A stretch of 55,970 nt of DNA from Bacteroidetes Order II. bacterium (GCA_016788705.1 JAEUSQ010000041.1:1-55970); one strand, 5' to 3'; shown: positions 8,021-35,400, counted from the stretch's first letter. Notes: generated from the letters alone by a model not told the origin. A program made the numbers and translations.

Positions 8021-8498
8021 AGACGAGTGGGCTAAAGGTGGAAAGCCATAAGTTTCAAAATTGCTTCATCATGTTTATGTGAGTTTTGTATGGTAGGCTT
8101 GTGAAGAAGCAGGTTGAAAAAATGTACAGAACCGTTTTATGGCCCAACAAGTTACGGTGTATGAACCCCGAAAAGGAAGAGGGAAGGGCAAAAAAAGGAA
8201 AAAACCGTCTTTTTTGAACATTCCGTAGGGGATTGTTTTTTGAATTAAACCATTAACCTTTATGCCCTATCCAAACCCCGACACCTTAAACCCTTGCTAC
8301 AACGGTTCCATTTGGTGATATTTTTTTACTATTTTGAAATTATATCACCTCAAATTTTGCCTGTTGTTACGAAATATTATTGTCATGAAGCGAACGCGAA
8401 ATGTTTGTAATAAAACGATTCTGACCGCCGAAAGAAGTACTGCAACCCTCTTCCGGTATTCATTTTATCAAGACCATCCATCCACCGTTTATAGATCC
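8021..8498. other. Divergent control region between glgA and the giant gene (478 bp)
   Basis: This region must hold the promoters for glgA (leftward) and the giant gene (rightward). It contains an 8-bp inverted repeat at 8314-8349, described separately. The frame of the giant gene is open back to a TTG at 8334, with an ATG at 8385. Translation from 8385 would add a basic, unconserved 38-residue extension before the normal signal peptide. No RNA gene is visible. Confidence 0.6.
8314..8349. promoter_or_regulatory. Inverted repeat over the presumed promoter of the giant gene
   Basis: GGTGATAT (8314-8321) and ATATCACC (8342-8349) are perfect inverse copies separated by 20 bases. TTTG (8311-8314) and TATTTTG (8330-8336) lie inside or next to it and resemble the FCB-type -33/-7 elements, although the spacing is shorter than the consensus. 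A dimeric regulator or a leader hairpin could use this dyad. Confidence 0.4.
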
Positions 8499-11400
8499 AT
8501 GCACATGTTTGAACGTTGTGTAAGCCGCCTTGGGGCAGGCATTTTTAGTTTTGCAGCCTTTACCATGCTGTTGGTTTCTCCACAAGGGCTTTCGGCTCAG
8601 GAACAAACACTTCAAGATGCAGGAGGAGATCCTATATCAAAAATGGAGATGGCTAAACCACTTATTTTTGAGGATTTAGTGGTTCCGGAGCCTATGTTTT
8701 CAAATGTGAAAGATGGGGTCTCGGAGGTGGCAGACACGCCAAACGCTGTTCAGAATGTGCTATTCACCAATGTGACGGGCTTTGTTTATAATGATTATAA
8801 CAGCAACGGGGTAAAAGATACCTATGATATCGGGGTGCCTGGTGTCTTGGTCTCGGCCTATGGGAGTAATGGGGCGCTTATTACCTCTACCACCACGAAT
8901 GCAAGTGGTTCATATTCTTTGTCGGTTTCGAGCGGGACACAAGTTCGGATTGAGTTTACCCAGATACCCACAGGGTCTTATCCTACCAATGCAGGTAGTG
9001 GAAATGGAACAACGATACAGTTTGCCACCGCACCTGCTTCGAATGTGAACTTGGGGATTAACTATCCGGCAGATTACTGCGAGAATAATCCAAAGATGGC
9101 CACGCCCTTTTACGTAAATGGTAATCCGTTAGGGGGTGGTACTGCGGCAAGCTCAAATGCCTTCTGGACGTATAACTATTCTGATAGTGATTTCAGTTCG
9201 CCGACAGCCACAACCACCGCCAACAAAATTGGCGCTACTTGGGGGGTGGCCTATCAACGCGAATCGAAAAAACTTTTTGCGAGCGCCTTTATTAAGCGGC
9301 ATGCTGGTCTTGGGCCTCTCGGGACGGATGGGATCTACCTGATAGATTATTCTACTTCCACGCCCACTGTTTCTAATTACATTGATTTAGGTACGCTCGG
9401 TTTTGGTGCAGGCAATGATCCGCATACTGGCTTGCCAGCCAATAAAATTGATGCCAATTCAGACACAGGTGCTTTTGATGCAGTTGGTAAAGTGGGTTTA
9501 GGGGATATTGACCTTTCGGAAGATGGTAGCAAATTATATGTCATGAATTTGTTCACCCGCTCTTTGCTAAAAGTAAATATTGGTAGCCCAGCAAAAGCTG
9601 GAAGTGCGGTAACCGCTTCCGATATTTCAAGTTATCCTGTTCCAAACCCTGGTTGCACGGGTGGTGATTACCGTCCATTTGCAACCAAGGCTTATAGAGG
9701 GAAAGTTTATATCGGTATTGTGTGCAATGCTCAATCTTCTCAGGATGCCAATAACCTTCGAGCATTGGTTTATGAGTTTAATGAGTCCACCAGTTCCTTC
9801 AATACTACCCCAGTCTTTACCTCCGGTTTAAACTTTAACAGGGGCACTGCCATTACCAGTTACTCTGCGAATTGGCGTCCATGGATCACGACTTTCCCCA
9901 ATATCAACGATACATTTGTTATCGCATATCCGCAGCCCATTCTCAGTGATATTGAATTTGATGTTGATGGTGCGATGATTCTTGGTTTTACCGATAGGTT
10001 TGGCCATCAATCGGGTCGGGCAAACATTAATCCTGTAACGAATCAATTATTTAGTGGTGGGCAAGCCGGAGACATGTACCGGGCAGCGAAATCCGGATCT
10101 TCTTGGGTACTGGAAAACAACGGTACATCGGGAAGTTTTAGCTCCGGTGGTGCTGGAAATGGACAAGGTCCAGGTGGCGGTGAGTTTTTCTGGGCTGATG
10201 ATCAGTACGAACATGACCAGCAATTTCAGGGAGGTCTCGCCGTGCGCCCTGGATCGGGTGAAATCATTAGTGTTTCAGAAGACCCGATCAACGGTTCTTA
10301 TTGGGCGGGTGGTGTTATTTATAGTAGAAACAATACGGGCGCCTTTGTACGTGGAAACGTATTATATAAAGATTCTAATGATGTGAGTGGTTTTGGTAAG
10401 GCAGTTGGCCTCGGTGATGTTGAATTGCTTTGCTCGCCTGCCCCACTCGAAATCGGGAACCGCGTGTGGTTAGATACTGACTCAGATGGGATTCAAGACG
10501 CAGGTGAAGGGGGCATTTCGGGTGTAACGGTGCGTCTGTTCAAGAGTGGTAGCCAAGTGGCAACCACAACTACCGATACCAAAGGGGAATACTACTTTAA
10601 TAATGGAAACGTAACAGGCGGGCTTTTGCCAAATATGGCATATGAAATTCGCTTAGACAAAACCCAGACGGCTGTTACATCCTATTCTCTTTCAAATGCG
10701 AATGTTGGTACGAACGATGCAATAGACAGCGATGCCACAATGAGTGGCAATAACGCCATAATAGCACTCACGACGGGTGGTTATGGGGTTACCAATCATA
10801 CCTATGATTTTGGCTTTAATGCTGGCCCACCTCCTCCTGATGGTTGGGCATATGTTTGTACGGACGATAAAAATGTGGGGCTATATGGTAGAGGGGTCAA
10901 TGGCGCAACCCTTCCACAAACGATTTCGATTCCAAATAGTGGTGCTGTATTTCAGGTGGTGGCCGAGGTGGTGTATAAAGGTTCTAATCCAGGCGCCACC
11001 ACAACGTTTAAAGATGCTTCCGGAACAGCATATTCTGCAAATCGAATTACTCCTCCAGGTACTAGTTCGGATGTATGGGTTTATCGTGCGGTGCTTCCAG
11101 GAACCGCATCAGTTCGCTATGACAACACCAGTGCCCAATCCAGCCTCCAATCTTTTGTCGTATATCCGTTCTATATGGGAACGGGTGATGGTAAATCCAC
11201 CACAGGTAAATTTACGACCCTAAGTGGCTACAATGATATTCAAACCTTGACCCTCAATATTCCAACCGATGCAGGTAGTCGGGATTTGAAAGTGACCGTT
11301 CCAATTTCAGAATTGACAAATGATGGGCGTGCCCTCAAGGTGACGGCAACGGCTGGTGGCGTGAGTAACTCAGTCATTATCCGTGGGCCAGATACCAGTT

Positions 11401-14400
11401 TGGGGAATTGCTGTTTGGCCATGCCAATGGTGACGCTCACCAATGTTCCGGCAACGGCCACTTCTGTCACAATCACGATAGATACACGCAATGGCCAGGT
11501 GGTTTCGGGTGTAGATGGCCAGTCTTATGTGATTGCAGGAGCCTTGGAAGCGGAAGTGAATTGTGCCAAAGCCAAAATAGGGGATTATGTTTGGGAAGAC
11601 CGTAACCGTAACGGTCAACAGGATACAGGAGAACCTGGTATTCCCAATGTGCAGGTTAAGTTGTTGGATCCTTCAAACAATACCCTCAGCACTACGACGA
11701 CCGATGGCAGTGGGATGTACATGTTTGGCAACTTACAGGCTGGGACTTATAAAGTGATGTTTACAACTCCTTCTGGATATGTTCCGACCCTTAAAGATCA
11801 GGGTTCTGATACCAGTGACAGCGATAACGATCCAACCACAGGTATGACAGGAACTTATACATTGGTAGCTGGCCAAGAAAATAAAACGGTGGATGCTGGA
11901 TTCTATAAAGTTGCAGATCTTGAGTTAGTAAAAGTAGTGGATAATGCCAATCCTGTAACGGGTGGAACCGTTAACTTTACGATTTCTGTAACGAACAAAG
12001 GACCTGCCCAAGCCACAGGCGTAGAGGTGAAAGATTTGTTACCAACGAACTTGGTTTACCAAAGTGCCACTGCCAGCCAAGGCTCTTATACAAATGGAAC
12101 GGGTATCTGGACGGTTGGAACGCTTAATGTGAACCAGACGGCTACCCTGCAAATCCGTGCAACAGCCAATGGGACGGCTAAGAACTGTGCTGAAGTCACA
12201 AAGGCTAATGAGTTTGATTCCGATTCAACGCCAAACAATTACAACAATGGAACCGGGCCGAACGAAGACGACGATGATTGTAAAGACGTTGGCCCTGTAA
12301 ATAAGATTGACCTTGAACTTACCAAAGCCGTAAGTGCAACCTCTGCAAATATTGGCCAAAATGTTACTTGGACGGTCACGTTGGTTAATAAAGGCCCCAA
12401 TGCCGCAACGGGTGTTACGGTAAGGGAAAATGTACCTGCCGGAACCACTTTCGTAAGTGCAACCCCTTCTCGAGGTTCTTACAACCAATCAACTGGAATT
12501 TGGACGGTGGGCAATGTGGCTGTAAATGAGACACTCACGTTGGCGCTTGTTACCACTATTCAGCAAACGGGTAGTATTATAAATTATGCAGAAGTCAATG
12601 CCGCAAATGAAATGGATGTGGATTCTACACCGGGGAATGGTTCTACAAATGAAGATGATGATGACACCAAGTCTTTGAATGGAACCGGAAAGATTGATCT
12701 TGAACTGACAAAGACGGTAAATAACTCTACGCCGAATTTTAATGATAATGTCACGTTTACGGTGACCGTTCGGAATGTCGGCCAAATTGCCGCAACAGGG
12801 GTTGAGGTAAGTGATGTGTTACCCGCAGGGCTTCAGTATGTGAGTGCGACGGCTTCTCAAGGATCCTATGTTAATGCAAGCGGTATTTGGACGATCGGTG
12901 GAATGGCGGTTAATGCAAGCGTAAACCTGCAAATTGTGGCGAAGGTCGTCACGACCAATCAGGTGACCAATTATGCCCAGGTTTCGAAGGCCAACGAGAT
13001 GGATGTGGATTCTACGCCGGGTAATAATTCCACGAATGAAGATGACGATGACCAAGTTACTCTTGGGCCGAAGTCGCTGATTGATTTGGAATTGACAAAA
13101 CTGACCAATAAGACCACCGCTAATGTAGGAGATACCGTTGAATTTACAGTGTCGGTAGTGAATAAGGGGCCCAATACTGCCACAGGCGTTGCTTTAGAAG
13201 ACCTTCTCCCGAATGGTATGTCGTTCAGTGCTGCTACGCCAAGCCAAGGGAGTTATAATAATGCAACAGGTCTTTGGACGGTAGGGACATTGAATGTCAA
13301 TGCAACTGCTACCTTGCTGATTCGCACCATAGCCAATGCAACCGCAAAGAACTGTGCACAAGTAAAAGCCGCAGATCAGACCGATGTGGACTCGACACCG
13401 AACAACTTTAACAGTGTGACCGAGACACCAAACGAAGATGATGACGATTGTAAGAGTGTAACCGTAGCACCCAAGATTGATTTGGAATTGACCAAAACCG
13501 TAAATAATGCAAGTCCGGTTGCGGGAAATAACGTCACCTTTACCATTACCGTTACCAACAAAGGGCCGAGTGCTGCTACGGGTGTAAATGTGAAAGACCT
13601 ACTTCCGAATGGTCTTACCTTTGTATCTGCTACTCCAAGCGTCGGTAATTATAACAGTGCTACGGGTGTTTGGTCTATTGGCAATGTAGCCGTAAATGCA
13701 ACCCCCACCCTTGCGATCACGGCGACGGCAACCGGAAATCCTTCTATGGCCACCAACTGTGCCGAGGTGAGCAGTGCCACCGAAGTTGATGCCGACTCTA
13801 CGCCAAACAATGCTTCTGCAACCCATGAAGACGATGATGCCTGTGCCAAAGTCACTACTTCACCGCAGCGCATTGATCTGGAATTAACAAAAACGGTTAA
13901 CAATGCCAACCCGACAATTGGTGGAACGGTCTCCTTCACCTTGACGGTTATCAATAAAGGACCCCAAAATGCCACGGGTGTTGCGATAGATGACGTGTTG
14001 CCAGGTGGGTTCCAATATGTTTCTAATAGCGGTGGATATAACCCAACGACTGGTTTGTGGACGGTAGGGAACTTGAATGTGAATCAAACCGCCACGCTTA
14101 CGATTACCGGAACCGCAACGGGTACGCCCAATACGGTTCGTAATTGTGCAGAAGTGGGTACCGCTGATCAATTGGATACGGATTCTACGCCGCGAAACAA
14201 TGTCCAAACCGAGGATGACTATGCCTGTGCGCAATTTACCGTACAACCAAGAATTGATCTGGAAGTAAATAAGGTGGCCAATACCAACAGTGTTCCTGTA
14301 GGTGGAGAAGCCAGCTTTACCATTACTGTGGTGAATAAAGGGCCAAGTGAGGCGACGGGGGTTGTGCTTAAAGACTTGTTGCCTGCGACCGCCACGTTTG

Positions 14401-17400
14401 TGGGCGCCTCGGCGAGCCAAGGAAGTTATGTAAATGCCAGCGGGTTATGGACGGTGGGCAACCTGGCAATAAATGGTTCTGCTACCTTACTGCTCACGGC
14501 TAAAATCAACAGTACCACCAATAACTGTGTGGAAGTGAATGCGGCGAATCAAACCGATATAGACTCTACACCCAATAACAACTCTACGACGGAAGATGAT
14601 GATGCCTGTGCAACCATTTCCACGACGCCCGTTATTGACCTTGAATTAACGAAAACCGCCAGTACTACCACACCTGTAATTGGCCAAAATGTGACGTTTA
14701 CAATTTCGGTTGTAAACAAAGGGCCGAGCAATGCAACAGGAGTGACTGTCAGTGACCTTTTACCAACTGGCTTACAATTTGTATCGGCAAATCCTGCGGC
14801 GGCATATAATGCTGCGACGGGCGCTTGGACCATTGGTAATGTGGCAGTAAATCAGACGGTGACGCTCCAGATTGTGGCAAAGCCAACAACTACAGAACAA
14901 GTTCGGAATTATGCGCAAGTAGCAACGGCGAATGAAACCGATATAGACTCGACACCGGGCAATAATTCCAATACCGAAGACGACGACGATGCGGTGGTGC
15001 TTTCTACAAGACCACAAATTGATCTGGAACTGACCAAGACAGTAAACACCACCAGTCCGCAATTGGGCGGCACGGTCACCTTCACCCTTTCGGTAGTGAA
15101 CAAAGGCCCTGCTCCGGCAACAAATGTGACGGTTTCGGATCAGTTGCCAGCCGGACTGACCTTTGTGTCGGCAAGCGGTGTAAATGGATCATACAACAAT
15201 ACGACGGGTATTTGGAGTATTGGCAATATTGCTGTGAATCAAGTGGTAAGCCTGCAAATTACCGCAACCGTAAATAGTACGAATCCGATCACGAACTATG
15301 CCCAGGTTAATTTTGCAACCGAAACCGATATAGATTCCACTCCTGGAAACAACTCCACAACAGAAGACGACGACGATCAGGTTACCATACAAGGAGCAGC
15401 AAAAATTGACCTTGAACTGACCAAAACAGTCAATACTACTGCGCCCAATATCAACGACAATGTGACCTTCACCGTTACAGTCGTGAACAAAGGGCCGAAC
15501 AATGGTACTGGTATAGAAGTTCGTGATGCCTTGCCAGCCGGATTGCAGTTTGTCTCTTCTTCTGCAACACAAGGCAGCTATGTGGCTTCTACCGGAATTT
15601 GGACTATCGGAAACCTTGCCATCAATCAAACAGTGCAGCTACAAATTGTGGCTAAAGTTACCACAACCAATACGGTTATCAATTATGCGCAGGTGAATAA
15701 AGCCAATGAGCAAGATATTGATTCCACGCCGGGCAACAATTCTACGACAGAGGATGATGACGATCAGGTGATCCTTTCTGGAAAGCCGGTGATTGACCTT
15801 GAATTGACCAAATCTGTTAATACAACTACACCTGCCATCAATGGTGATGTAACCTATACGATAACGGTTGTCAATAAAGGGCCAAGCAATGCGACAGGTG
15901 TGACGGTTTCGGATCTTCTGGCTTTGGGTCAGACCTTTAAATCTGCGACAGCAACACAGGGCGGCTATACAAGCGCAACAGGTTCTTGGAATATTGGAAA
16001 CCTCGCCGTAGGTCAGTCTGTTCGATTAGATATTGTAACAACGGTCACCACAACGGATCCACTCCGGAACTATGCGCAAGTTGCAACAGCGAATGAAACA
16101 GATATTGATTCCACACCGGGCAATAATTCCAATACCGAAGACGACGACGATGCTGTGTTGATTCAGGCCGCAAAGAAGATAGACCTCGAGTTGACAAAAT
16201 CTGTAAACAACAATGCGCCGATAGTGGGTCAAAATGTGATTTTCACGCTTTCACTTATCAATAAAGGTCCCAGTGGCGCGACAGGTGTGGCAGTAAAAGA
16301 TGCCTTGCCAGCGGGATTAGCCTTTGTTTCGGCAAGTCCATCTGTTGGTTCATTTGACAATGGAAGTGGTATCTGGACAGTAGGCAACCTTGCGAATGGA
16401 CAAGCGGTGACTCTTCAGATTACAGCTACGGTAAATACGAGAGACCTCGTGACCAACTACACCCAAGTGAGTGCGGCCAATGAACCTGATGTGGACTCTA
16501 CGCCGAACAATAATTCCACAACCGAAGATGATGATGATCAGGTTAGTTTACAAGGAACGCCTCGTATAGACCTTGAGTTGACCAAAACGGTGGACAACAA
16601 TAAGCCAGCAATTAACTCGAATGTCACCTTTACCATAACGGTGGTGAATAAAGGTCCAAATAATGGTACCGGAATAGAAGTTAAAGACGTATTGCCAACA
16701 GGTCTTCAATATGTTTCCTCTTCTTCGACACAAGGAGGGTTTAATCCTACATCGGGCATTTGGACGGTCGGTAATTTAGCCGTCAATCAGTCAGTCGAGT
16801 TAACTTTGGTGGCGAAAATGACGACTGCAAACACGGTGGTTAATTATGCCCAAATAAACAAAGCCAATGAAACCGATGTGGATTCTACGCCGGGTAATAA
16901 TTCGACAACAGAGGATGATGACGATCAGGTAACGCTTACTGGCGAGGCGAGAATTGACTTAAGCCTTACGAAAGTCGTAAACAATTCGGCACCTGTTGCG
17001 GGTACATCAGTGACCTTTACGGTGACCGTTCGCAATGACGGGCCTTCCCCAGCAACGGGTGTGAACGTAAAAGACCTTTTACCCGCTGGTCTCACCTATC
17101 AAAACTTTACAACGGCTTCGGGAAGTTACAACAACGCAACAGGAATCTGGAGTGTGGGTAACTTGGCGGTGAATACCACTGCCAGCCTGCAAATTACTGC
17201 GTTGGCTACGGGTACTCCGGCAACGGTTGATAACTGTGCGGAGGTAAGTGCCGCAGGTCAAACGGATGTGGATTCCACACCCGGCAATGCCGCGAACGTA
17301 AAAGAAGATGACGATGCGTGTGCAAAGGTAACCACCTCGCCACAACGCATTGACCTTGAACTCACGAAAGTGGTGAACAATGCAACACCTGTTGTTGGAG

Positions 17401-20400
17401 AAAATGTGACCTTTACTGTAACGGTTCAAAACAAAGGGCCACAAAATGCCACTAATGTTCAGGTTTCGGATTTTCTCCCGAATGGAATGGAGTATGTGTC
17501 GTCCAGCAGTTCGGTGGGTGGCTACAATGCTGCGACGGGTTCGTGGGTCATTGGCAACTTGGCGGTAAATCAATCGGTCGCCCTTCAAATAGTGGCGAAA
17601 GCCAATGGGACTGCTACCAATTGTGCGGAGGTATCCCGTGCTTCTGAAATGGATGTTGACTCGCAACCGGGTAATAATTCTACAAATGAAGACGACGATG
17701 AATGTCGGACAGTAACTGTGCAGCCACGTATTGATTTGGAATTGACCAAGGTGGTGGATAACAATATCCCCAAGGTGGGTGAGAATGTCACCTTTACGAT
17801 TCGTGTCGTAAATCGTGGCCCAAGCAATGCGACCGGTGTGGCCGTTAAAGACTTGTTGCCTACGGGCTTAATATATGTTTCCAATACGCCGAGTGCCGGT
17901 ACTTATGTGCCTGCCACTGGCATTTGGACTATCGGTAATATGCCCGTAAATGCAGCGGAAAACCTGTTAATTACTGCTAACGTTGCAGCCGCTGGGCAGA
18001 TTGTCAACTATGCGCAAGTGAGTGCGGCCAACGAAACCGATATAGATTCCACACCAAATAATAACTCCACAACCGAAGACGACGATGACCAAGTGGTGAT
18101 TTCAGGACAGCCGATTGTGGATTTGGAATTGCAAAAAACGGCCAGCAAGCAAGAAGTTTTGGTGGGCGAAAATGTGGTCTTTACTATTCGTGTTGCGAAT
18201 ACTAGTGCTTATTCCGCTACCAATGTTAAAGTGGTAGATGTTTTACCTTCTGGCTTTACCTTTGTTAGTGCAAGTGACCCTGCATTTGATGCCGCCACTA
18301 AACAATGGACTGTTGGAACTTTGGCAGCAGGTGCTAGCAAAACATTAAATCTAACGGTCACGGCAAATCAGGCCATTGCGATGACGAACTGTGCCGAGAT
18401 CAGTAACCAAAGTGAAGCTGATCTTGACTCTACGCCTTCAAATGGGGTGAGTACAGAAGATGATTATGGATGTGCCCAAGTGAATGTAAAACCGCGTACC
18501 GCAAGCTTAGACATTACCAAGGCGGTGGATAAAGTGGTTGCGAATGTGGGTGAAACCGTGATTTATAGCATTACAGTGCGGAATAACGGCGATCAGACAC
18601 TCCCCGAATTGACGGTAAATGACACGCAAGCATTGCAACTGAACACCCCCCAATATACCCTATCGGGTGATGCTACCGGAAGTGGGGCATGGACGGGAAC
18701 GCTCAAAATTACGCCTTTAGGTGGTTTGGCTCCCAATGAAGTTGTGACGGTTCGCATCTCAGGTACGGTCCCAACTTCGTTGTTGGGAAGCAACTTCCGT
18801 AATACGGCAACGGTGTCTGCTCCAAATGTGGATCCAAAGACCTCGAACGAAGTTGAGACACGTGTTCCGGTGGCAAACCTGACCATTAATAAGCAAGTGG
18901 ACAAGACCGCAGCCTCTCCAGGTGACCCACTTTCCTACACCCTTACGGTAACAAATGTAGGGGATGCGCCAGCCACCAGTATTCTGGTTAATGATGGTGC
19001 GGCGGTAACAAACCTTACCAACCCAACCTATACGGTAACGGGTGGAACTCCTGCAAGTGGTAATTGGACCGGTTCGTTGACTATTACACCAGGTGGAATA
19101 GGCTTGGCGAAAAATCAATCCATTATCATCCGTATTAATGGAACGGTTCCTGCTACTGCTACCCCAGGCACAGTTTTGGTAAATAGCGCTTCGGTTGCTT
19201 CACCGCAAGATCCGAATGGAACAACCCCTTCAAATCCTGTGCAGACAGTAATTGGAGGTGCCGATTTGGTGGTTGCGAAAGATGTGGACAAAACCGCTGC
19301 CCAGGCGGGAGACCAATTGCTATATCGGATTACGATTACCAACAAAGGAACGGCAACGGCCAGTAATGTGGTACTTCAGGATGCGGTGCCATTAGCTTCT
19401 CCAAAATATGCGATTGGTGCGGACTTTTTGTATGCCACAGGTGGTACGGCCTGGCCTTCGAGCAATAGCCTTACGTTGCCTAACTCTATTGCACCGAATA
19501 CAACCGTAACCGTCTTTATTCGCGGTATCATCCCAACTAATACACCTTCTGGTGCTGTTGTGCAAAATATTGCGCAGGCTTCCTCACCCAATGATCCAGA
19601 TGGGCCAGCAGTGAGTCCGCCAGTCCAAACGGTGATTAATGCCGCTGATCTTGCAGTGACGAAAACCGTAAACAAAACTGCCGCACAACCCGGAGACTTT
19701 ATTGCTTACACCATCACCATTACAAACAATGGAAATGGCGATGCAAAAACCATCTTGGTGAGTGACGCAGGCGCAATGGCCTTACAGAATCCGACTTATA
19801 CCGCAGTCAATGCGGCTCCCACTGGACCTGCTGCGTGGACAGGTCAATTGACCTTTACACCGGTAAATCCTCTTAAGAAAGGGGAAAGTATCACGGTCTA
19901 TATTTCGGGAACGGTTCCTGCCAGTACCGCTCCGGGAACCATTATCCCCAATACGGCACAAGTAAGCTCGCCGGAAGACCCAACGAGTCCAGTAACATCT
20001 ACACCTGTTCAAACCGTGATTGGAGCAGCAGATTTGGTGGTCACCAAAGAGGTGAGTCAAACAGCGGCGCAACCGGGCGATCAACTTATGTATAAGATCG
20101 TGGTGAAAAATCAAGGAACGGCTACCGCTACCAACGTATCCGTTACCGATGCCGTACCGCTTTCCACACCGAAGTATGCAATTGGTGCAGACTTTAACTA
20201 TGCTACGGCTGGAACGGCGTGGCCGGGAACGATCACCCTTCCGACAGCATTGGCTCCGAATGCAACGGCTACGATCTATATTCGTGGTTTGGTTCCGGCA
20301 GTACCGCCTGGATCAGTTTTGCAAAACATTGCGCAGGCCTCTTCACCCAATGATCCTAATGGTTCCGAAAAGTCTAATCCTGTGCAAACGGTCATTAACG

Positions 20401-23400
20401 CCGCAGATTTGGTGGTGGATAAAACCGTAAATAAAAATGCAGCGAATGCGGGAGATGTCTTAACCTATACCATTACAATCAGGAATAACGGAAATGCGAC
20501 AGCCAATACCATTACGCTGAATGATGCTGGAGCACTCGCATTGCAAAATCCAACGTTTACGGTAACGGGTGGCGTCCCAGCGAGTGGTACCTTTACTGGA
20601 ACCATCAACCTTATTCCAACAGGTGGTCTGGTTCCAAACGAAGTGATGACAGTGTTGATCACTGGAACAATTCCAACAACAACTGCTCCGGGAACGGTTA
20701 TTCCAAACGTAGCACAAGTAAGCTCGCCCGAAGACCCAACCAGTCCGGTGCAATCCCCAGAAGTCCAAACGGTCATTGGGGCAGCAGACCTTACGGTAAA
20801 CAAAACCGTTGACAAAGCAAACGCACAGGTTGGTGATCAATTAACCTATACCCTTACCGTCACCAATAATGGTACTGCAAATGCGAAAACGGTTTTGGTG
20901 GATGATCCGCAAGTGGTTGCTTCGTTGCAAAACGTAACTTATACCGTAACAGGTGGAACGCCAACTTCTGGAACATGGACGGGCAGCCTGAACATCACCC
21001 CAACAGGTGATTTGGTTCCGGGCGAGAGCATGACCATAGTTATCAAAGGAACGATTCCGGCTACGACTACACCAGGTACCGTCATTCCGAATACCGCGCA
21101 AGTCTCGTCGCCGCAAGACCCGACCAGTCCAAACCAATCGCCGACTGTTCAAACGGTTGTCGGTGGTGCGAACTTGAGTGTGAATAAGACGGTAAACAAA
21201 ACCGCCGCTCAAGTAGGAGACCAATTGGTTTATACAATTACGGTGACGAATAACGGAACCTCGTCCGCAAATACGGTGACGCTCGATGATCCGGGTGTAT
21301 TGGCACTCAGCAATCCAACTTATACTGTTAATGGTGGAACACCTGCTGCGGGTGCATGGCCCACTTCTGGTTCGTTGGTTATCACGCCGACAGGTGGATT
21401 GGTGGCTGGCGAAAGCATGACAATTACGATTGTTGGTATTATTCCGGCGACAACAGCGCCTGGAACAAGTATCAAAAACACGGCACAAGTTTCCTCCCCA
21501 CAAGATCCGGGCGATCCGAAGAAGTCTCCGACGGTGGAGACCATTATTGGTGTCGCGGATTTGGTGATTGATAAGAAGGTGGACAAAGCCGCCGCCCAAG
21601 CAGGTGACATCCTAACCTATACGCTCACGATTACCAATAATGGTGTCGCGGCTGCTGCATCGGTGAAAGTGGATGACGCACAAGCGGCTTCCGAATTACA
21701 AAACGTGTCTTATACCGTAAATGGTGGAACACCTGCCTCCGGCACTTGGACTGGAAGTCTGACCGTTACACCAACGGGCGGGTTGGTTCCGGGCGAGAGT
21801 ATGACGGTGGTGATAACCGGAACAATTCCTGCAAATACGACCGCTGGAAAGGTGATATCGAATACGGCGCAAGCCTCGTCGCCGCAAGACCCAACCAGTC
21901 CTGTAACCAGCCCGGAGGTCAATACCGTTGTTGGTGGTGCCGATCTTGTCATTGTGAAAGCGGTGAATAAATCGGTTGCACAAGCCGGAGACCAATTGAT
22001 CTATACGATTACGGTAACAAACAATGGAACCGCTGCCGCAAATTCGGTAAAAGTGGATGATGCTCAAGCAACTTCGGCGCTTCAAAATCCAACCTTTACC
22101 CTTACAGGCGGCATACCCGCAAGTGGAGTATGGACGGGAAGTCTGAACATTACGCCAACAGGTGGCCTTGTATCGGGCGAGAGCATGACATTGGTGATTA
22201 CGGGCAATCTTCCTTCCAACGTTCCTGCTGGGACTTCCATTCCAAACTCGGCACAAGTTTCTTCTCCGCAAGACCCGAAAGGAACCAAAACCTCGCCAAC
22301 CGTTACGACGGTAATTGGTGCGGCAGACCTTACGGTATTTAAAGAGGTGAGCAAAACCGCCGCTCAAGCCGGAGACGAACTGCTCTACAAGATTACGGTT
22401 ACGAACAAAGGAACCGCTACCGCAACAGGTATAACCCTGACCGATGCACTACCATTGACTACTGCTAGGTATAATGTGGGAGCAGACTTTGCTTATGCAA
22501 CGGGTGGAACGGCATGGCCAACTAATAATACGGTTAGCCTCTCGAACTTAGCACCCAATGCGGCTGTTACGGTCTTTGTGCGCGGGCTGATCCCAACGAA
22601 TACGCCAGCTGGCTCCGTCATCCCGAATACCGCACAGGCTTCCTCGCCTACAGATCCATCGAATCCAAACCCATCCAATACGGTAACAACGGTGATTGGT
22701 GCGGCGGACTTGGTGGTGCAAAAATCGGTGGATAAATCGGCGGCACAATCCGGTGACCAATTGCGCTATGTGATTACCGTAACCAATACCGGAACGGCAA
22801 CTGCTACGAGTGTCCAATTGACCGATAACCTCTCGATTGGTTCTGCACGATACAATGTGGGGGCGGACTTGAGCTACCCAGCAGGTGGCACGGCGTGGCC
22901 CACAACCAATACCATAGGTTTGGGGAATTTGGCCGCTGGAGCCAGTACAACGGTTTATGTTCGTGGTCTGATTCCGGCTGTTCCTGCTGGAAGTGTGATT
23001 GAAAACATCGCACAAGCGTCATCGCCCAATGATCCGACAGGGCCAGCGCAATCTCCCGTTGTGAAAACGGTGATTAATGCTGCAGACCTTACAGTTACGA
23101 AAGCCGTTGATAGATCTGCTGCACAAGCGGGTGATCGGTTAACCTATACGCTGACCATTACCAACAACGGAAATGCCCCAGCAAATACCGTTCGTTTGGA
23201 AGACTCGGTACTGCTGACGAACCCAACCTTTACGGTAACGGGTGGAACCCCAGCGAGTGGGAATTATACTGGAATCATCAACCTGATTCCGACAGGTGGC
23301 TTGGTGCAGAACGAGAGCATGACTGTCACGATTACAGGACTTATTCCAACGAATACCCCCATCGGAACGGTTATCAATAACGTTGCACAAGTGTCTTCGC

Positions 23401-26400
23401 CTGAAGACCCAACGGCTCCGGTTAAGTCGCCAAATGTGCAAACGGTTATTGGCGCGGCAGACTTGGTGGTAGCCAAAACGGTAAATAAAACTGCTGCTGC
23501 TACTGGGGATATGATCCTTTATGTGGTGACGGTTTCCAACCAAGGTACCGCAACCGCTAATAATGTGGTGGTAAACGATGATGTGCCGTTGACGAATCCG
23601 AAATACAATATAGGGGCTGATTTTGCATATGCAACCGCCGGAACCACTTGGCCGAGCAATGCAAGTATTACGTTGCCCACCTCTCTTTCACCGGGCGCTT
23701 CGGCTACCATCTATATTCGTGGACGTATTCCGAATGTAGTACCGGGCGCGATTTTAGAGAACATCGCACAAGCATCCTCGCCGAACGATCCGACGAGTCC
23801 CGCACAATCGCCCAAGGTCCAAACGGTGGTTAATGCAGCAGACTTGGCCGTGAATAAAACGGTGAATAAAGTGGCAGCCAATGTGGGTGAGGAATTGGTT
23901 TATACCCTTACCATCACCAACAATGGAAATGCGACGGCCAATACCATCACCCTGAACGATCCGGTCTCCATTAGTAACCCAACGTTTACGGCAAGTGGTG
24001 CAACGCCCGCAAGTGGAAACTGGACAGGTTCAACTGTATTTACGCCAACGGGCGGCTTGGCTTCTGGAGCCTCGATGACGGTTACGATTCGCGGAACGAT
24101 TGCTGCCAATACGCCTATCGGAACCGTAATCAACAATACCGCTCAGGTGACCTCGCCGCAAGACCCAACAAGCCCTGTCAATTCTCCGACGGTTCAGACG
24201 GTCGTTGGTGGTGGAAACTTGCGCATCACGAAGGCGGTGGATAAGACGGCGGCTCAAGCGGGTGATCAGTTGACCTATACGATTAACGTAACCAATAACG
24301 GAACAGGTGTTGTTAATACCCTGACGATAGATGATACCAATGCACTTGCCCTAACCAATCCGACCTATGCCCTGATCGGCGGAACGCCAACATCGGGAGC
24401 TTGGACAGGTTCTTTGGTGGTGACACCAACGGCTGGTTTGGTATCGAACGAAACCCTGACCTTGACCATCACCGGAACCATTCCTTCAGGTGCAGCGGCT
24501 GGAACGATCTTACAAAACATTGCACAGGTGTCCTCGCCACAAGACCCAACAGGGCCAAAACAGTCTGCACCAGTACAAACGGTTGTGGGTGCGGCTCAAC
24601 TCAGCATTGTGAAAGACGTGGACAAAACAGCGGTACAAGTAGGGGATGAGGTGATGTATCGGGTGACGGTTACGAATAAAGGGACGGCCACGGCCACTTC
24701 GGTGACACTTGCAGATGCTGTTCCGTTGACTAATCCGAAGTACAACCTGAATGCGGACTTTAATTATGCAACAACTGGAACGGCTTGGCCAGCGAGCAAC
24801 ATCCTGACCATACCTGCCTTGGCTCCAAATGCTGCTACAACGGTCTTTATTCGCGGCCTTGTGCCCTCGAACATACCGTCGGGTTCGGTTTTGGAAAACG
24901 TTGCTACTGTTTCTTCACCACAAGATCCAAATGGTCAGCAGGCCTCGGCGCCAGTTAGATCGGTTGTGAACGCGGCAGATTTGGTGATTACGAAAACAGC
25001 AGACAAAGCCACTGCGGCGGCTGGTCAAAGCCTGACCTATACCTTGACCGTTAAGAACAACGGAAATGCAACGGCCAATACCGTAACCGTTGACGATGGG
25101 CCAGCCTTGGCGCTCCAAAATCCGACCTATACGGTAAATGGTGGAACGCCTACAAGTGGTGCTTGGACGGGTTCTGTAGTTATCACGCCAACTGCTGGCC
25201 TGGTTTCTGGCGAGAGCATGACCATCACCATTACCGGAACGATTCCATCTAATACGACGGCTGGTACCGTGATCAACAACGTAGCACAGGCTTCTTCTCC
25301 GCAAGACCCGACGAGCCCGGTTCAGTCGCCAAACGTACAAACCGTTATTGGTGGTGCGAATTTGGTGATTGTGAAAGATGTAAATAAATCTTCTGCACAA
25401 GCGGGTGATGAATTACTCTATCGAATAACGGTTACCAATCAAGGCAGTGTAACAGCGACTAATGTGGTGGTGAATGATGCCTTGTTGCTAACAAATGCTC
25501 GTTATAATGTTAATTCGGACTTTGTGTATCCGACTGCCGGAACCGCCTGGCCTGCCGGTAATAGCATTAATATCCCTAATCTGGCGGCCAATGGCTCTGT
25601 AACCATCTTTATTCGTGGGTTGATTCCAAGCCTGCCTTCGGGATCGGTACTGAACAACGTGGCAACGGTCTCCTCGCCGAACGATCCGACGGGGCCAAAA
25701 CAATCCAATATCGTGCAAACCATTTTGGGTGGTGCCGACATTGCACTGTCTAAATTGGTTGATAAATCAAGCGCTAAAGTGGGTGACCAACTCAGCTATA
25801 CCTTGATTGTGCGGAATAATGGTACGTCGCGTGCTAATACAATCAACCTGACCGATAACATCGGGCTGACAAATACATCGTACCGTATTAACAATGGCGC
25901 TGTCGTATCGCCTTGGCCAGGAACGTTGAATATGACCTCTGCTTCGGTTAGTGCCATGCCGCTCGATCCGAACCAAGAAATCCGCATTGTAATTTCGGGT
26001 ATTATTCCAACTGGTCTTGAAAACACGGTATTGAACAATGTAGCAGTGGCCTCTTCTCCAGAAGATCCGACTTCTCCGGTCACTTCAAATACGGTCTCGA
26101 CAGCTATTGTCTCGGAAAATCCCGCTTTGGCTGTTACCAAAAGGGTGACCAATATCACAACGGCTTCCAATAGCAATAGTGTGACTTTCCAAATTCAGGT
26201 AGTGAATACTGGAAATACGGACTTGACCAACTTGAATGTAACCGACGACCTGGTGAATACTTTCATTAACACCGCCAGACCTATCGCGGGTGATTATAGT
26301 AGCATTTCAGGTGGAACGGTTCAATTTACGGCAGGTACAGGAACCTTTAATCCATCATATAATGGGAAGAATAGCGGTTCGGTAAATCTACTTGCTCCAG

Positions 26401-29400
26401 GGGCATCCTTACCAAAAGGGGCTACTGCAACCATTACCTTTACAGTGAACGGAGTGGTTCCTGCTTCGAGCGCGGATTACACGAATACCACGAATGTGGA
26501 TGGAACAGCACCAACCGGGCAAAAAGTGGTAGGTGTTGCTTCAACAACCTTTGGATTTGGTGTACCGCTGATAAACGTGTTTAAGACTGTGGCAGGCGCA
26601 CCAATTCAAAAGGCTGATGGCTCGATGGATGTAAAATATCGGATTACGGTAACAAACCCGGGAACTGTTCGGGTGACCAATGTCCGTCTTACCGACCGTC
26701 TTATCCCAGATGTTTTCCCAGCTACTTTCACTGTTACGGTACCTGGAAAACCCGCAATCGTTGGATCTGCAGGGACCTTTAACTTGACCCCCAATGTCTT
26801 GTATGACGGAAATGTAAATCCAGATGTCTTACTGCAAAATCCAAGCAATTATTTGGATCCAAATGCAAGTGTTACATTTGAGTTTACGACCAATATACAA
26901 ACCAACGGAAGTACCAATGTTGGGCCTTTTACCAACAAAGCCTGTGCGGAAGCCAGTGGTAGCAGCCTCGGTGCAAATGCCTGTGGTAGTGCTGATCCCG
27001 TATCATTGGTCCGTTTCGCGTCCGATATTGCGGTTGAAAAAACCGTAGATAAAGCCGTTGCAAATGTAGGAGACAAAGTAACTTTTACCATTGTTGCCAA
27101 AAACCTTGGACCAAACAATGCTACGGGTGTTGTACTGACGGACTTGTTGCCGAGCGGCCTCTCCCTTTCGGCGGCCTCTGCGTCTTCCGGAACCTACAAT
27201 TCGGGTAATGGGCAATGGGCAATTGGAGACCTCGTGGTTGGAGAAAGTAAGGTGCTGACGATTGTGGCCAATGTGGCTACTTCAGGTAGCTTCGTCAATA
27301 CGGCAACCCGTACTGCGTCATCTCCAACTGATCCGAACGCATCGAATGATGTTTCTCGTGCAACTGTTTGTGCAGGAACAGGATGTGGTGGTCAATTTGC
27401 GGATGTTGGCATTACAAAAGGCGTCTCTGACTTGAGTCCTTCCGTAGGAAGCAAGGTGATTTTTACCATTGACCTGTATAACCGAGGTCCTTTCGATGCG
27501 ACCAATGTGGTGGTGAGCGATCCATTACCTGCTGGACTGACCTTTGTAAGCGCAACAAAAGGTGCATACAATGCTGGGATTCGTACTTGGTCTTATACTC
27601 AGCCATTTATAGGTGCAGGAGAAACCAAGCGTTTCTTCATTGAAGCCCAGGTGGATGCGGCAGGAACCTTAACAAACGTTGTGAACATCACCTCGTTAGA
27701 TCAAACAGATCCAGTAACCTCTAATAACAGTGACTTCGCCATCGTAAACCCACAAGGTCCGGTTGCAGATATTGAGGTTCTGAAAAGTGCAGACAAAGCA
27801 GCGGTTAACCTCGGAGAAAACGTAACCTTCACCATCTTGGTCACCAACAATGGGCCGACTGCCGCAACGAATGTCTCCGTGAGTGATAAGTTGCCTGGTA
27901 GCATGACGTTCATATCGGCCAGCCCAAGTGCAGGCACGTACAATGCTGCAACGGGTGTATGGACGATTGGAAACCTCGCGGTGAATCAGACCGTGAACCT
28001 GAAAATCGTTGGGAATGCGACACAAAATGGGACTACAACCAATGTTGCTACACGGCTTTCCTCGTCACCGACGGATCCTGTGAACGCAAACGACCAATCA
28101 GAAGCGACTGTTTGTGCTGGCCCTTCTTGTTCTGCTCAGGTAGCAGATGTAGCGGTGGATAAAGAAGTGGTCAGTGGAACCATTACACCGGAGGTAGGTG
28201 CATCGGTATTGTACAACATTGTGGTTAAAAATAATGGGCCATTTGATGCCACAAATGTGGTGCTGAACGATGTGATTCCCGCTGGCCTGACCTATAAAGC
28301 CGCTACGGGCGGTACGTATAACAATGCAAACCGCACATGGGCTATAACAATACCCTTGCTTAAGAATGGTGAAAGTAAGACGTATCGAATTGAAGTTCGC
28401 GTAGATCAAGTCGGCGAGATCATTAACTCGGTCCGGGTCATCGGGCTGGATCAAACCGATCCTGTACGTTCCAATAATGAGGATTCGGCAACCATCAACC
28501 CCAATACGCCACAAGCGGATATTAAGGTTGAAAAGTATGTAAGCAAGACCGTTGCGAATGTGGGCGAAAATGTGACCTTTACGGTTGCTGTCACCAACAA
28601 TGGTCCTCAAGCTGCGACCGGAGTGAAAGTGGGTGATACCCTACCAACGGGTCTAACGTTGGTTCAATCCTCGGCGACTCAAGGAACTTATGCAGGTGGT
28701 GTTTGGGATGTGGGCGCATTGGCCGTAGGCGAAAGCCGCGTATTGACGGTGGTTGCAAATGTTTCTGCAAATGGCAACTTTACCAACACGGCTATCCGTT
28801 CGGCATCCTCTCCTGCGGATCCAAACCCGTCTAACGATAGCTCGTCCGCAAAAGTATGCGCGGGTTCTGGCTGTGCCGTGAACTTTGCAGACGTTGGCGT
28901 TCGTAAATCGGTAAATAATCCGATTCCGAATGTGGGCGAAAATGTGACCTTCACGATTGAAGTTTATAATAATGGGCCGTCTGATGCAACCGATGTAAAA
29001 GTAAATGATGTTATTCCAACCGGATTAACATACCGCACGGCTACGGGAGGGGCATTCGATAACGCTGGAACACCTAAATGGGCAGTAACCATTCCACTAC
29101 TTAAAGTGGGCGAACGGGTGTTCTACAATATTGTAATGACGGCAAACAGCACGGCGACCATTTCCAATACAGCCGTGATTGAACGCCTTGATCAAACCGA
29201 CCCAGTGGGTGGTAATAATGCCTTTACCGTCACCCTCAACCCGGTTGAGGCTGCAGATGTTCGCCTCACCAAATCGGCCAATAAAGTGGTGACCCAGGTT
29301 GGTGAACAAGTAACCTTTACGGTTACCGTAACCAATGATGGACCTAATACGGCCACCAATGTCCGTGTTCAGGATTTTGTACCTGCTGGTTTGACAGTTA

Positions 29401-32400
29401 CGGGTGTATCTACGACTAAAGGGACTTGGGCCGCTCCCGAATGGAATGTTGGTTCGCTGACACGAAATGAAAGCGCCACTTTACAAATGGTGGTGACGGT
29501 TACAGCCAATGGTCGCTACGAAAACATTGCACAAGTTTCGGCGATGAACCAACGTGATCCAGACTCGACGCCGGGCAACTCAAATCCGGACGAAGATGAT
29601 CAGGCTTCGGCCACCATTTGTGCTGGAACAGGCTGTGGAACCACCCAATTTACCGATTTGGCTGTGACCAAGGTGGTAGATAAAGTGGCGAATGCCGTTG
29701 GGGATGTCGTGACGTTTACGGTAACTGTTCGTAACAATGGCCCTGCTCCTGCTACTGGGGTTGTATTAACCGATCAATTACCTGCAAATTATAATGTTAC
29801 CTTGGCTACGCCGAGTCGGGGGACGATTACCGGAACAGGTGTTGCCCGTACATGGAGTATTGGCAATATGGCCGTAGGAGAAGCGGTTGTTATGCAGATC
29901 GTTGGGATTCCGACAAGTGATGGCATCTTCCCGAACACGGTTACGGTTCGTGGCGATCAATCCGATCTATTGGAATACAACAACGAAGCCCGTGCAACCT
30001 TCTGTGCTGGAACTGCTTGTGGTACGGTTCAGAATGCGGATTTGCAAATCTTTAAAGTGGTGGATAAACTGGCTCCGCAAGTGGGTGAAAATGTTCGCTT
30101 TACGATAACTGCCTCCAATGATGGCCCAGCTAATGCAACGGGGGTTCGGGTAACGGATATTTTGCCTGCTGGATTACAGTTCGTGTCGGCTTCGAATGTG
30201 AGCTATAACCCAGCCAATAACGATAATATCTGGGATGTAGGGAATTTGCAAGCCGGACAAAAAGTCCAGATGGAAATTGTGGCAAAAGTACTGGATCTCA
30301 CGGGAACCATTACCAACACTGCTTCCATTACAGGTAACCAAACTGATCCGGTTCCTTCAAATAATGAGGCTTCGGCAGTGATCTCCAGTCAGGCGGTTGT
30401 GGACCTGCTCTTGGACAAAACCGTGGACCGTGAAACGCCTTCTGTGGGTGAAAATGTTACCTTTACTATTGTTGTTTCAAATGCCAGTACCCGACAAGCA
30501 ACAGGTGTTAAAGTAACCGACTTATTGCCAACAGGGGTAAGCTATGTCTCGCAATCCCTAACAGCGGGTACATACGACAAAAACACAGGTCTCTGGACGG
30601 TTGGTACGTTGAATCCGGGACAATCACAAACCTTGAGTTTGACTGTTAAGGTAGAAAGCGCTCAATCGGTCATTAACTTTGCATTGGTGAGTGGCTTAGA
30701 CCAAATAGATCCTACACCCGCCAGTGATTTTGCACGGATTACGCCGATTCAGTCGGTTGATATTGCCATTGAAAAGACTGTAGATGTTGCTTCTCCAAAG
30801 GTCGGGGATACGGTTAAGTTTACCGTCTCTGCAACCAACCTGAGTGCTGTCACCGCCACCAATGTCCGTGTAAGTGATGCCTTGCCAAATGGCCTTACCC
30901 TCACGAATGTATCTTCGACGAAAGGGACTTTCGACCCGGTAACGGGAATTTGGAATGTAGGAACACTCCAGCCTGGTGCAGCCAATAAAGGCCAATTGGT
31001 GATTACAGCATTGGTGAATACCTCTGAACGCATTGCCAATATTGCAACCCTCGTTGGGGTAGATCAAACAGATACCAATCCTGCAAATAACCAAGCAATT
31101 GCCGTAATTGCTCCTGGAGTCTCGGCAGACTTGCAGATTCAAAAGTCGGTCAGTAAAGACAAGCCTGGACTGAACGAGACCATAACGTTTACGCTAACCG
31201 TTCGAAACCTCGGTCCTGGAACTGCGACAAACCTTCTGGTATCGGATGTACTGCCTTCCAGCAGCGACTTACAGTATATCTCATCCAGTCCAGCGGGTGT
31301 ATATAATAGTGCGACCAATACCGTTACTTGGACCGTTCCGACGTTGGCTGCAAATGCACCGCCACTTACCTACACCATCACCGCGAAAACGCTTTTGGGT
31401 GGTTCAAAAACCAACGTAGCGACGGTTCGTGGGGATCAGACGGATCCAAATCCAAACAATAACTCGGATAATGTTTCTATCTGTGTGGATTGTCCGGCGG
31501 ATCAAGTGGATATTGCTGTAACAAAATCGGCAGATAAATTGGAGCCGAAGTTTGGGGAAGTGGTTCGCTTTACGATTACAGCACGCAACAATAGCACAAC
31601 TGCAGCAACAGGCGTGGTGTTGGAAGACATCTTGCCAGCAGGCCTAAATCTTGTTCCGGTATCGAACCCGGATGTGACGGCGGTTGGGACGTTGGTAAAA
31701 TGGAATGTGGGTTCACTTACTGCTAACCAGACGAAATCGTTGACATTAGATGTACAGGTAAATACCTATTCCGTATCTACGAATATTGTTACATTGACCA
31801 AAGTAAATCAGCAAGACACAAATCCGGATAACAACACAGCGTATGTTACGGTGGTCCCGAAGGTGGATCCATCTAATGGTGTTGATCTCTTTATGCAGAA
31901 GTTTGTCTCAGGTGCAAACCGCGTAAACAAAGGTGACAATGTAACCTTCAAGTTGGTTGTAACGAATGTGGGTTCGGTTGATGCCACCAATGTGACGGTG
32001 GATGATGTCCTTCCGGCAACAGGCGTTCAGTTGGTCTCTGCAAATCCAGCATCCAGTTTCAATAGCACAACTGGAATTTGGAATGCAGGAACGCTGAAGG
32101 CTGGTGATAGTCAAACGCTCGAAATTACGGTAAAAGCCAATGAAGCGGGATGTTATGCGAATGTTGCTAAGGTATTTGGCTCTACACCCGCAGATAGCAA
32201 CCTGTCTAATAATGGGGCTGTTGCACAGTTCTGCGCTGGTGCACCTATCCCAGTAGCCGATCTTGAGCTGTCAAAAACCGTGAATAACCCAACGCCAAAA
32301 GTAGGAGATACGGTTGAGTTTGAGATTACCCTTTCGAACCGTGGGCCAGCACCTGCTACCGGAATTGAAGTATCTGATGTGCTCCCGGCGAATATTACGT

Positions 32401-35400
32401 TTATAAGCGCTACACCGGAAACAGGGGCATACAATACGGCTACCCATGTTTGGTCGTTAGGTCAATTACTGAGTGGTCAGGCCAAGAAACTGAAAGTCAC
32501 TGCTACGGTGACAAACGCTACGCCGGATATCAACTTTGTGGCTGTAACCAAGTTGAACGAACAAGACCCTACGCCAGCCAAGGCCCAAGTAACCGTAACG
32601 CCGCTTAGTGGGACCCGTGCTGCCGATGTTCAAATTACCAAGATTGACCAAAATGACCCCGTTAAACCTGGTGACGACTTGGTCTATACGATCTCGGTGG
32701 TTAATGCCGGGCCAGATACTGCCGATAACGTGGAAATCTCGGATATCTTGCCGAATGGTCTTACGTTCCAAAGCGTGGACGTGTACCCAACTTCAGGGTG
32801 GACAGTGAATACAAGTCAGGCAAATACGGCCGCACGCCGAATTGCTGCGACAACGGCAACCATGCCTGCTGGCTCGGTCGCTACCTTCGTTGTAAGAACC
32901 AAAGTGAATTCGAATGTAACCGTTGGAACCGAACTTGAAAACCTTGCTTCGGTAACCACTACTACACCAGATCCAAAGGCAGACAACAACAGCGACAAAA
33001 CAACAACAACGGTTTCCGACAAACCATTGGAACAAGCCGCCGATCTGCAAATCCAAAAAGTAGATCAGTCGGATCCGGTGAAGCCAGGAAGCATATTGAC
33101 CTATACGCTGCAACTTACGAATGCAGGTCCGGCAACGGCACAAAATGTCTTGTTGACGGATGTATTACCCAGCAATACCACCTTTGCCTCGGTACAAGTC
33201 AATCCGCCAACTGGATGGTCTATCTCGGCTCCGCCTGTAGGTGGAACGGGTAGTGTGGTACTGTCTAACCCAACGTTACAAATGGGCTTTGCCACCGTTA
33301 CCATCTCGGTCAATGTGGCTTCAAACCTTGCGGATGGGACGCTTTTATACAACACGGCAACCATTAGTGGAAGTTTACCGGATCCGAACAAAGACAATAA
33401 CACATCAACGGCCACCACTTTGGTGCGCCAAGAGTCTCCAGTCTTTGCTGCAGATCTTCGGGTAACCAAGTTTGATTTGGTTGATCCAGTGAAAGCAGGT
33501 GAAACTCTCACTTATACGATAACAGTTACCAATGCTGGACCTGCTACGGCAACCGATGTCGTATTGGTGGATGCGCTACCTGCCTTTATGACCTTCCAAA
33601 ACCTGAGTGGTGTTCCAAGCAACTGGAATGTAACAACACCCAGCATTGGACAAGGTGGCAATATTCGTCTTACCGCTTCTAACTTCCCGGTAGGTTCATT
33701 TACCTTCACCATAGGGACCAAAGTGGATCAAACGGTTCCGGATAATGCGCTTTTGACGAATGTTTCGGCTGTTTCGGCTTCGAGTTTCGACCCGAATCCG
33801 GATAACAATACCGATACTGAAACTACCTTGATTAAGAACGGACAAGTATCTGACCTCAGCATTCTGAAGGTGGCTTCGGCGACAAAAGTATCGCCAGGTC
33901 AGACACTTAATTATACAATTACGGTTACGAACATTGGCCCGAATCCGGCAGAAAACGTTCGTGTAACGGATATTCTACCTGCTTCGCTAAAGTTTGTATC
34001 GGTTGCCAATGTACCTGCTGGCTGGACCGTTCTGGCGCAACCCGCAGCTGGAGCTTCAGGTCAGGTGGTGTTGACTGCGGCAAATGTGCCATTAGGCTCT
34101 TATACCTTTAACATCAACACATTGGTGGACAACGCGGCAACCAGTCCTTCCTCCGTGAATAACGTCGCTACGGTGCTCTCTACGACGATAGATCCGAATC
34201 CGTCGAATAATTCCAGTGTTGTGGAAACTATGATTGGTGAGCCACAGAATCGGGCCGATATCTCTGTGACGAAGCTTGGTCCAGCGACCGCGCAACCAGG
34301 CAATAACATTACCTATTCGATTCTGGTAGCGAACAACAGTGCAACCATTTCTGCCCAAAACGTGGAAGTTTCGGACGTCTTGCCTGCCAATGTTTCCTTT
34401 GTTTCTATCACTGGTGTACCGGGTTCGTGGACCGCATCTACGCCGCAAGCGGGTACTTCTGGAAGCATTTTGCTCTCTACAGCAAGTTTTGCTCCGGGTT
34501 CGTTCCAAGTACAGATAACGGTGAAGGTGGCAAACAATGCCGTAGCTGGAACTGCCGTGGTCAATACGGTTGTGGCTACTTCCTCCACACCGGATCAGAA
34601 TACGGTAAATAATACCAGTACCGTAACGACGACCATCGAACAACGTCCGGGTGTGGCCAATCTTTCAATCCAGAAACAAGATGACCGTGACCCTGTACGT
34701 GCGGGAGAATCCATTACTTATACCATTACGGTGAACAATGCCGGACCCGATTCTGCACAAAATGTGAAGGTGACGGATACCTTGCCTTCTGGAGTCGTCT
34801 TCCGTTCGGTAAGTGGCGTTCCCGTAGGATGTAACGCGAATACACCACAAGTTGGGACAAATGGCTCTCTCTTGCTTGCCTGTGCAACGGTTCAGCCCGG
34901 TAACTTTGCCTTCCAAGTGGTTGTGGACGTGAATGCTGCCATTCCGGAAGGTACCCTCTTGGTGAATAATGCCATTGTAACTTCGGAGACCAACGACCCA
35001 GATGCTTCTAACAACATCGCAACACAAACCACCCAAGTGGGCGGAAGCGGTGCTGACCTTAGCATTATCAAGTCGGACTTTCCGGACCCAGTAACTCCTG
35101 GAAACCAGTTGAAGTACACGCTTACGGTACGTAATGCTGGCCCTTCTACGGCAAGTAATGTGACCATCACCGATGTGTTGCCGGGGAACCTTCGCTTCTC
35201 GAGTGTGGTGAATGCACCTGCCGGATGGGCACTCGGTGTACCAACCGTTGGTACAAATGGTATCGTTCGGCTTACTGCGGCTAACTTCCCGGTAGGATCC
35301 TTCTCCTTCGATATCATTGGCGAGGTAGATGCAAATACTCCTACGGGTGATGTTATTGCAAACACGGCATTCATCAATAGTATTACACCCGATCCGAATC

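Follow-up and report, generated by a model that had tools for sequence, protein, structure and literature searches.

Why should the cysteines (Cys) of a long tandem array of domains be either both present or both absent in every repeat? The question is raised by a 55,970-nucleotide stretch of DNA from Bacteroidetes Order II. bacterium (GCA_016788705.1, JAEUSQ010000041.1:1-55970; the window), in which a single open reading frame (ORF), predicted to encode a giant secreted fibre protein, contains a block of 17 DUF11 (CLIPPER) repeats, block 1. The best explanation, which is considered probable, is that a disulfide between the last two strands of the Cys-type repeats complements a predicted isopeptide bond, making the fibre a fixed mosaic of locked and partly extensible repeats.

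Cysteines that occur in pairs

The repeats of block 1 were delimited at their conserved [IVA]DLEL or IDLSL starts, resulting in 17 units of 127-132 amino acids, all of which pass the curated cut-off of the DUF11/CLIPPER profile (PF01345); 17 stretches are matched by PF01345 and 17 by TIGR01451. Repeats 1, 4, 5, 6, 7, 14, 15 and 17 (8/17) contain exactly two Cys each, repeats 2, 3, 8-13 and 16 (9/17) contain none, and a single Cys is found in none of the 17. The first Cys stands after an invariant Asn in the motif N-C-[AV]-[EQ]-[VI], and the second follows 27-32 residues later in the motif E-D-D-x-x-C. If the repeats were independent, two such 8/17 labels would agree perfectly with a chance of 1/24,310, but since the repeats are related this is not a real probability. 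The pairing, the absence of singletons and the list of repeats had been given in a preliminary description of the locus and are exact by codon positions. The DDxC that it gives for the second Cys has to be replaced by E-D-D-x-x-C. Its label of Tyr type for the repeats without Cys is apt in the window, where tyrosine (Tyr) takes the place of the first Cys in 9/9 such repeats, but not in most other genomes, where Ile, Thr, Val or Ser stands there.

Homologous repeats were collected with a DNA pattern over genome contigs, in which the Cys position was left free to avoid bias, and from profile matches across 296 genomes in the phylum together with fetched arrays, for which Cys could be selected only via the query profile. 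This first set comprised 898 different repeats, 507 of them with a D-x-D-[ST]-x-P-x-N loop; among these loop-bearing repeats, 37 had both Cys, 0 the first only, 4 the second only and 461 neither, and 5 were unplaced. After the addition of arrays sought by the first Cys, the enlarged set reached 996 different repeats from 162 loci, and the second Cys was present in 80/80 repeats having the first, 19-36 residues downstream. Both Cys are therefore found together in one domain in all 80 homologues and in 8/8 Cys-bearing repeats of block 1, as in a disulfide-bearing CLIPPER variant. The 80 paired repeats come from 30 loci and several families, with loops differing in length and sequence; because the pairing holds at spacings of 19-36 residues, the partner Cys follows the strand rather than a fixed sequence offset. 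The second Cys without the first was seen in four repeats, all from locus L064, each with a substitute Cys in the same loop. L064 consists of Saprospirales repeats in which the substitute lies within an enlarged acidic loop (GDGDCSDDNGDEDDGDC), apparently as another local pair. Among loop-motif repeats lacking the first Cys, any Cys in the corresponding interval was found in only 14/475. Although uncommon, the Cys type turns up repeatedly, in several families within the phylum and also in an alphaproteobacterial bin (L151). When a pattern was directed at the second Cys, the matches were mostly unlike DUF11 loops, and a scan of viral contigs found nothing.

An isopeptide triad and the last two strands

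DUF11 was renamed CLIPPER after the crystal structure 9IFR from Acinetobacter silvestris, in which an isopeptide joins Lys-715 to Asn-806 with Asp-748 close by (PMC12617251). A PDB search with a single repeat gave chance matches only; an alignment profile of the block-1 repeats yielded 9IFR as the sole PDB relative and matched Lys7 with Lys-715 and Asn94 with Asn-806. Lys7 and Asn94 are present in 17/17 repeats and Asp41 in 16/17, so that residues corresponding to the whole CLIPPER triad (9IFR 715, 748 and 806) are found, with Lys and Asn placed by the alignment itself. The first Cys immediately follows Asn94. In repeat 2 (12306-12692), Glu replaces the predicted catalytic Asp in the window and in both other species of the genus examined, and this replacement may alter how the isopeptide of repeat 2 forms, or prevent it from forming.

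AlphaFold2 models of repeats 5-6 (Cys type; mean predicted local distance difference test score, pLDDT, 95.8) and repeats 10-11 (Tyr type; 97.5) both adopt a CnaA-like immunoglobulin (Ig) beta-sandwich, with fold matches to the BcpA and Streptococcus sanguinis PilA pilin domains (Z about 11) and to integrin Ig-like domains. In the model of repeats 5-6, C95 lies in strand 90-100 and C123 in strand 121-129, and C224 lies in strand 220-229 and C251 in strand 249-255; in both modelled repeats one Cys is thus in the penultimate strand (F) and the other in the last strand (G), and a register setting them directly opposite each other can be accommodated within each strand pair. Both Cys are predicted on the outer face of the sheet, alternating with the inward isopeptide Asn and hydrophobic residues. 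The same register emerges from covariation: in 453 Cys-free repeats, the top F-G mutual-information pair is F-2/G+7, which shares the antiparallel register of the Cys pair (z 2.6), and with the Cys repeats included the Cys pair itself becomes the top F-G pair (z 5.8). In a mean-field model, the register of the Cys pair has the highest mean coupling, with single pairs of other registers scoring higher.

The acidic stretch between the two Cys is the loop between strands F and G, and it is predicted to be ordered in both types of repeat, with block pLDDT values of 83-94 in repeats 5-6 and 96-98 in repeats 10-11. Its pattern D-x-D-S-x-P-x-N ... E-D-D is conserved among Cys and non-Cys repeats of block 1 and of its homologues and is well ordered without secondary structure in the models; the arrangement of Asp and Glu suggests a metal (Ca2+) site.

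An intradomain disulfide between strands F and G of the Cys-type repeats is therefore a well-supported prediction. The preliminary description had already read the Cys pair as such a bond, and that reading is strongly supported by the strand placement in the models, the F-G covariation and the pairing in 80/80 homologues; neither Cys in distant strands nor frequent single-Cys repeats in homologous DUF11 arrays were found. The acidic tail that the bond had been proposed to tie down is, however, the F-G loop. The further notion of an on/off module is borne out as a fixed mosaic common to three species, but there is no sign of switching.

A kept mosaic and what it may do

In every repeat, a CLIPPER isopeptide of the Lys-Asp(Glu)-Asn kind would tie strand A to strand F. 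Because CnaA-type isopeptides link the first and penultimate strands (PMC12617251), the last strand should stand outside this clamp, and with the isopeptide as the only crosslink neither the acidic F-G loop nor strand G would be part of the covalent path. With the last strand left free, a disulfide from F (N-C-A-E/Q-V) to G (E-D-D-x-x-C) is what would close the gap, and the likely target of this staple is the last strand. As it would start next to the isopeptide Asn, nearly the whole domain would be bridged covalently from A to G in a Cys-type repeat. Tyr-type repeats would have the isopeptide only, and their loop and strand G could in principle peel off under load. Counted along the sequence, the free backbone from the isopeptide Asn to the Lys of the next repeat is about 43 residues in a Tyr repeat and about 17 in a Cys repeat via the disulfide, which at about 0.36-0.4 nm per residue would correspond to roughly 16 nm vs 6 nm of free chain. 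We infer from this that Cys repeats would be fully locked and Tyr repeats partly extensible, if both bonds form as predicted. In pilins, unfolding can be blocked by isopeptides either totally or in part, and a partial block is consistent with shock absorption (PMC8355295).

The order of Cys and Tyr repeats is the same in the two other species of the genus, one of which has an assembly gap after repeat 2. Over block 1, one congener shows 91.3% protein identity, with 54% of the identical residues encoded by a different codon, and its Cys/Tyr state agrees at 27/27 positions compared. Because the order agrees between species despite such strong silent-codon turnover, the mosaic is, on this comparison, old and kept. 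When the FG segment was left out of the repeat tree, at least 16 changes of state were counted for the first Cys and 17 for the second; on well-supported branches only 3 independent pairs are left, all of them concordant.

Several points weigh against this account. The repeat tree is poorly resolved, the repeat being too short, which makes the number of independent events uncertain, and coevolution among Cys-free repeats gives a modest signal (z about 2-3). Furthermore, the F-G loop is predicted to be ordered in Tyr repeats also and may already be held, perhaps by Ca2+, so the mechanical gain from a disulfide could be small. The most serious competing explanation is that the disulfide is real but merely a generic feature for stability or protease resistance, swappable with cross-strand pairs such as Tyr-Gln, Ile-Ser and Thr-Ser, with no mechanical role and a meaningless order. 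Many different residue pairs do occupy these sites in non-Cys repeats, the same protein has several other Cys-pair placements, and disulfides beside isopeptides are widespread, occurring at various sites in 29.7% of CLIPPER domains (PMC12617251). An indifferent order is nevertheless hard to square with a mosaic identical in three species across so many silent changes, or with a first Cys that is always beside the isopeptide Asn, precisely where the crosslink path would be completed, and generic stabilization is regarded as unlikely. A more far-reaching proposal is that selection has fixed the order of Cys and Tyr repeats as a mechanical programme: the places of fully locked and partly extensible repeats would determine how stiff this very long fibre is along its length, and reducing the disulfides could make it softer, much as redox state tunes the Ig domains of titin. 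This is speculative and, on balance, quite unlikely.

Two further explanations dispense with a bond inside the repeat. Both Cys might have spread together on one FG segment by duplication or gene conversion, without any bond: downstream, repeats 5 and 14 are identical over one stretch (EDDDACAKVTTSPQRIDL), and with only 81-96 bases between the two sites a single conversion tract could carry both. The FG segments are old, however, with 57.7% base identity between Cys repeats vs 55.5% between Cys and Tyr repeats, by which recent gene conversion or copying of a Cys cassette is ruled out. Nor would shared descent account for pairing across the 30 loci with their varied loops, or for the way in which the pairing rule extends to the whole fibre, whose 34 Cys from residue 1194 to residue 9971 all belong to 17 local pairs no more than 32 residues apart (matched by 0/100,000 random placements), some in placements unrelated in sequence; as a full explanation it is very improbable. 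Equally improbable is that the Cys crosslink adjacent repeats or adjacent fibres. Their predicted outward orientation, deduced from strand alternation, would permit it, but the pairing is perfect within repeats even where the neighbours are Cys-free, as for repeats 1 and 17, loci with one Cys repeat only among those seen exist (such as L120 and L139), and bonds between repeats would not need two Cys per repeat. The F-G disulfide complementing the isopeptide remains the preferred explanation.

The fibre and its known relatives

Beyond block 1, block 2 (18500-26900, about 20 DUF11-like repeats) contains no Cys. Block 3 (26943-32234) has other placements of Cys pairs, always two per repeat and never one: five C-x4-C pairs near the repeat end (ATVCAGTGC type), one C-x2-C, one pair 13 apart, and a pair at residues 7940 and 7967, whose first Cys is three residues ahead of the isopeptide Asn. 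In block 4, one repeat has a Cys pair (34830-34883; residues 8833, 8850) elsewhere in the domain, at sites occupied by Trp and Ala in its sister repeats. The genus has additional giant DUF11 fibre genes, with a frame of 7,615 amino acids in the same genome (G000, contig C59) and frames of about 11,600 amino acids in two relatives (G001 C48 and G002 C18).

A Por_Secre_tail profile (PF18962), the C-terminal sorting domain of type IX secretion substrates, matches the C-terminus at about 39840-40064 (E 2.4e-10) and has 81 matches across the genome, and the N-terminus looks signal-peptide-like at about residues 57-90, as judged by eye. Because of this tail and N-terminus, the fibre protein should leave the cytoplasm. 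Oxidative folding is, by gene content, available to the host, because the genome codes for a frame of 433 amino acids combining VKOR and thioredoxin domains, another VKOR and additional DsbA-like proteins.

Table 1. Coordinates of the fibre gene, its block-1 repeats and the residues discussed (positions in the window)
Feature	Position	Strand	Details
ORF, 10,581 amino acids, predicted giant secreted fibre protein	8334..40079	+	SdrD_B domains, DUF11 repeats, Por_Secre_tail
Block 1, 17 tandem DUF11/CLIPPER repeats	11913..18500	+	order C Y Y C C C C Y Y Y Y Y Y C C Y C
Repeat 1 Cys pair and intervening loop	12186..12281	+	codons 12186, 12279; residues 1285, 1316
Repeats 2 and 3, Tyr type without Cys	12306..13079	+	repeat 2: Glu at predicted catalytic Asp position
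Repeat 4 Cys pair	13353..13451	+	codons 13353, 13449; residues 1674, 1706
Repeat 5 Lys7, predicted isopeptide Lys	13494..13496	+	invariant in 17 repeats; column of 9IFR Lys-715
Repeat 5 Asn94, predicted isopeptide Asn	13755..13757	+	directly before F-strand Cys; column of 9IFR Asn-806
Repeat 5 Cys pair	13758..13844	+	codons 13758, 13842; residues 1809, 1837; modelled strands 90-100, 121-129
Repeat 6 Cys pair	14145..14228	+	codons 14145, 14226; residues 1938, 1965
Repeat 7 Cys pair	14526..14609	+	codons 14526, 14607; residues 2065, 2092
Repeats 8-13, Tyr type without Cys	14634..16952	+	
Repeat 14 Cys pair	17235..17321	+	codons 17235, 17319; residues 2968, 2996
Repeat 15 Cys pair	17622..17705	+	codons 17622, 17703; residues 3097, 3124
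Repeat 16, Tyr type without Cys	17730..18116	+	
Repeat 17 Cys pair	18390..18473	+	codons 18390, 18471; residues 3353, 3380

Disulfides beside isopeptides are already known in CLIPPER domains generally, and the proposed staple is a variant that recurs within an established protein family. The sole PDB relative, 9IFR, shares with block 1 the profile family, the Lys/Asp/Asn positions, the CnaA-like fold, the tandem repeats in a long secreted surface protein and, if the predicted bond forms, a disulfide in the domain (PMC12617251). Its disulfide, however, is a C-T-T-C tetrapeptide inside the last strand, whereas the block-1 pairs, lying on two strands, are not of this C-x-x-C type and would join the penultimate and last strands across the acidic loop of 27-32 residues. 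The Gram-positive pilins FimP, FimA and SpaA likewise combine isopeptide and disulfide in Ig-like stalk domains with a metal-binding loop, and in the N-domain of FimP a Cys directly follows the presumed isopeptide Lys; in FimP, though, the disulfides are in CnaB-type domains and on other strands, and these are sortase-polymerised pilins rather than a single giant repeat chain (PMC3485203).

The giant adhesin of Mobiluncus mulieris, with 51 Ig-like domains, resembles the predicted fibre in being one giant chain whose repeated domains carry both isopeptides and disulfides, the disulfide joining adjacent strands of one sheet; it differs in that strands 2 and 5 of the isopeptide domain are joined, that the organism is Gram-positive and that ester-bond domains are present too (PMC10619420). 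CnaA shock-absorber pilins resemble the proposed Tyr-type repeats in having isopeptides that block unfolding partly, with part of the chain extensible (according to the review PMC8355295), and differ in that no per-repeat disulfide closing the remaining gap is described in that account. Among open-licence papers, taken without their supplements, none was found to describe an F-G disulfide next to the isopeptide Asn, the perfect pairing of its Cys or a conserved Cys/Tyr mosaic.

The best PF01345 match ends near repeat residue 116, which leaves the last strand outside the Pfam domain model; the F-G Cys pair straddles this boundary and is easily overlooked. Surface domains of the CLIPPER class are very common in bacteria and archaea. 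If the proposed explanation is right, a single natural array holds closely related Ig-like repeats that differ in having or lacking a second covalent bond where the isopeptide leaves a gap, and the sharing of load between two crosslinks in CLIPPER stalks could readily be tested on it.

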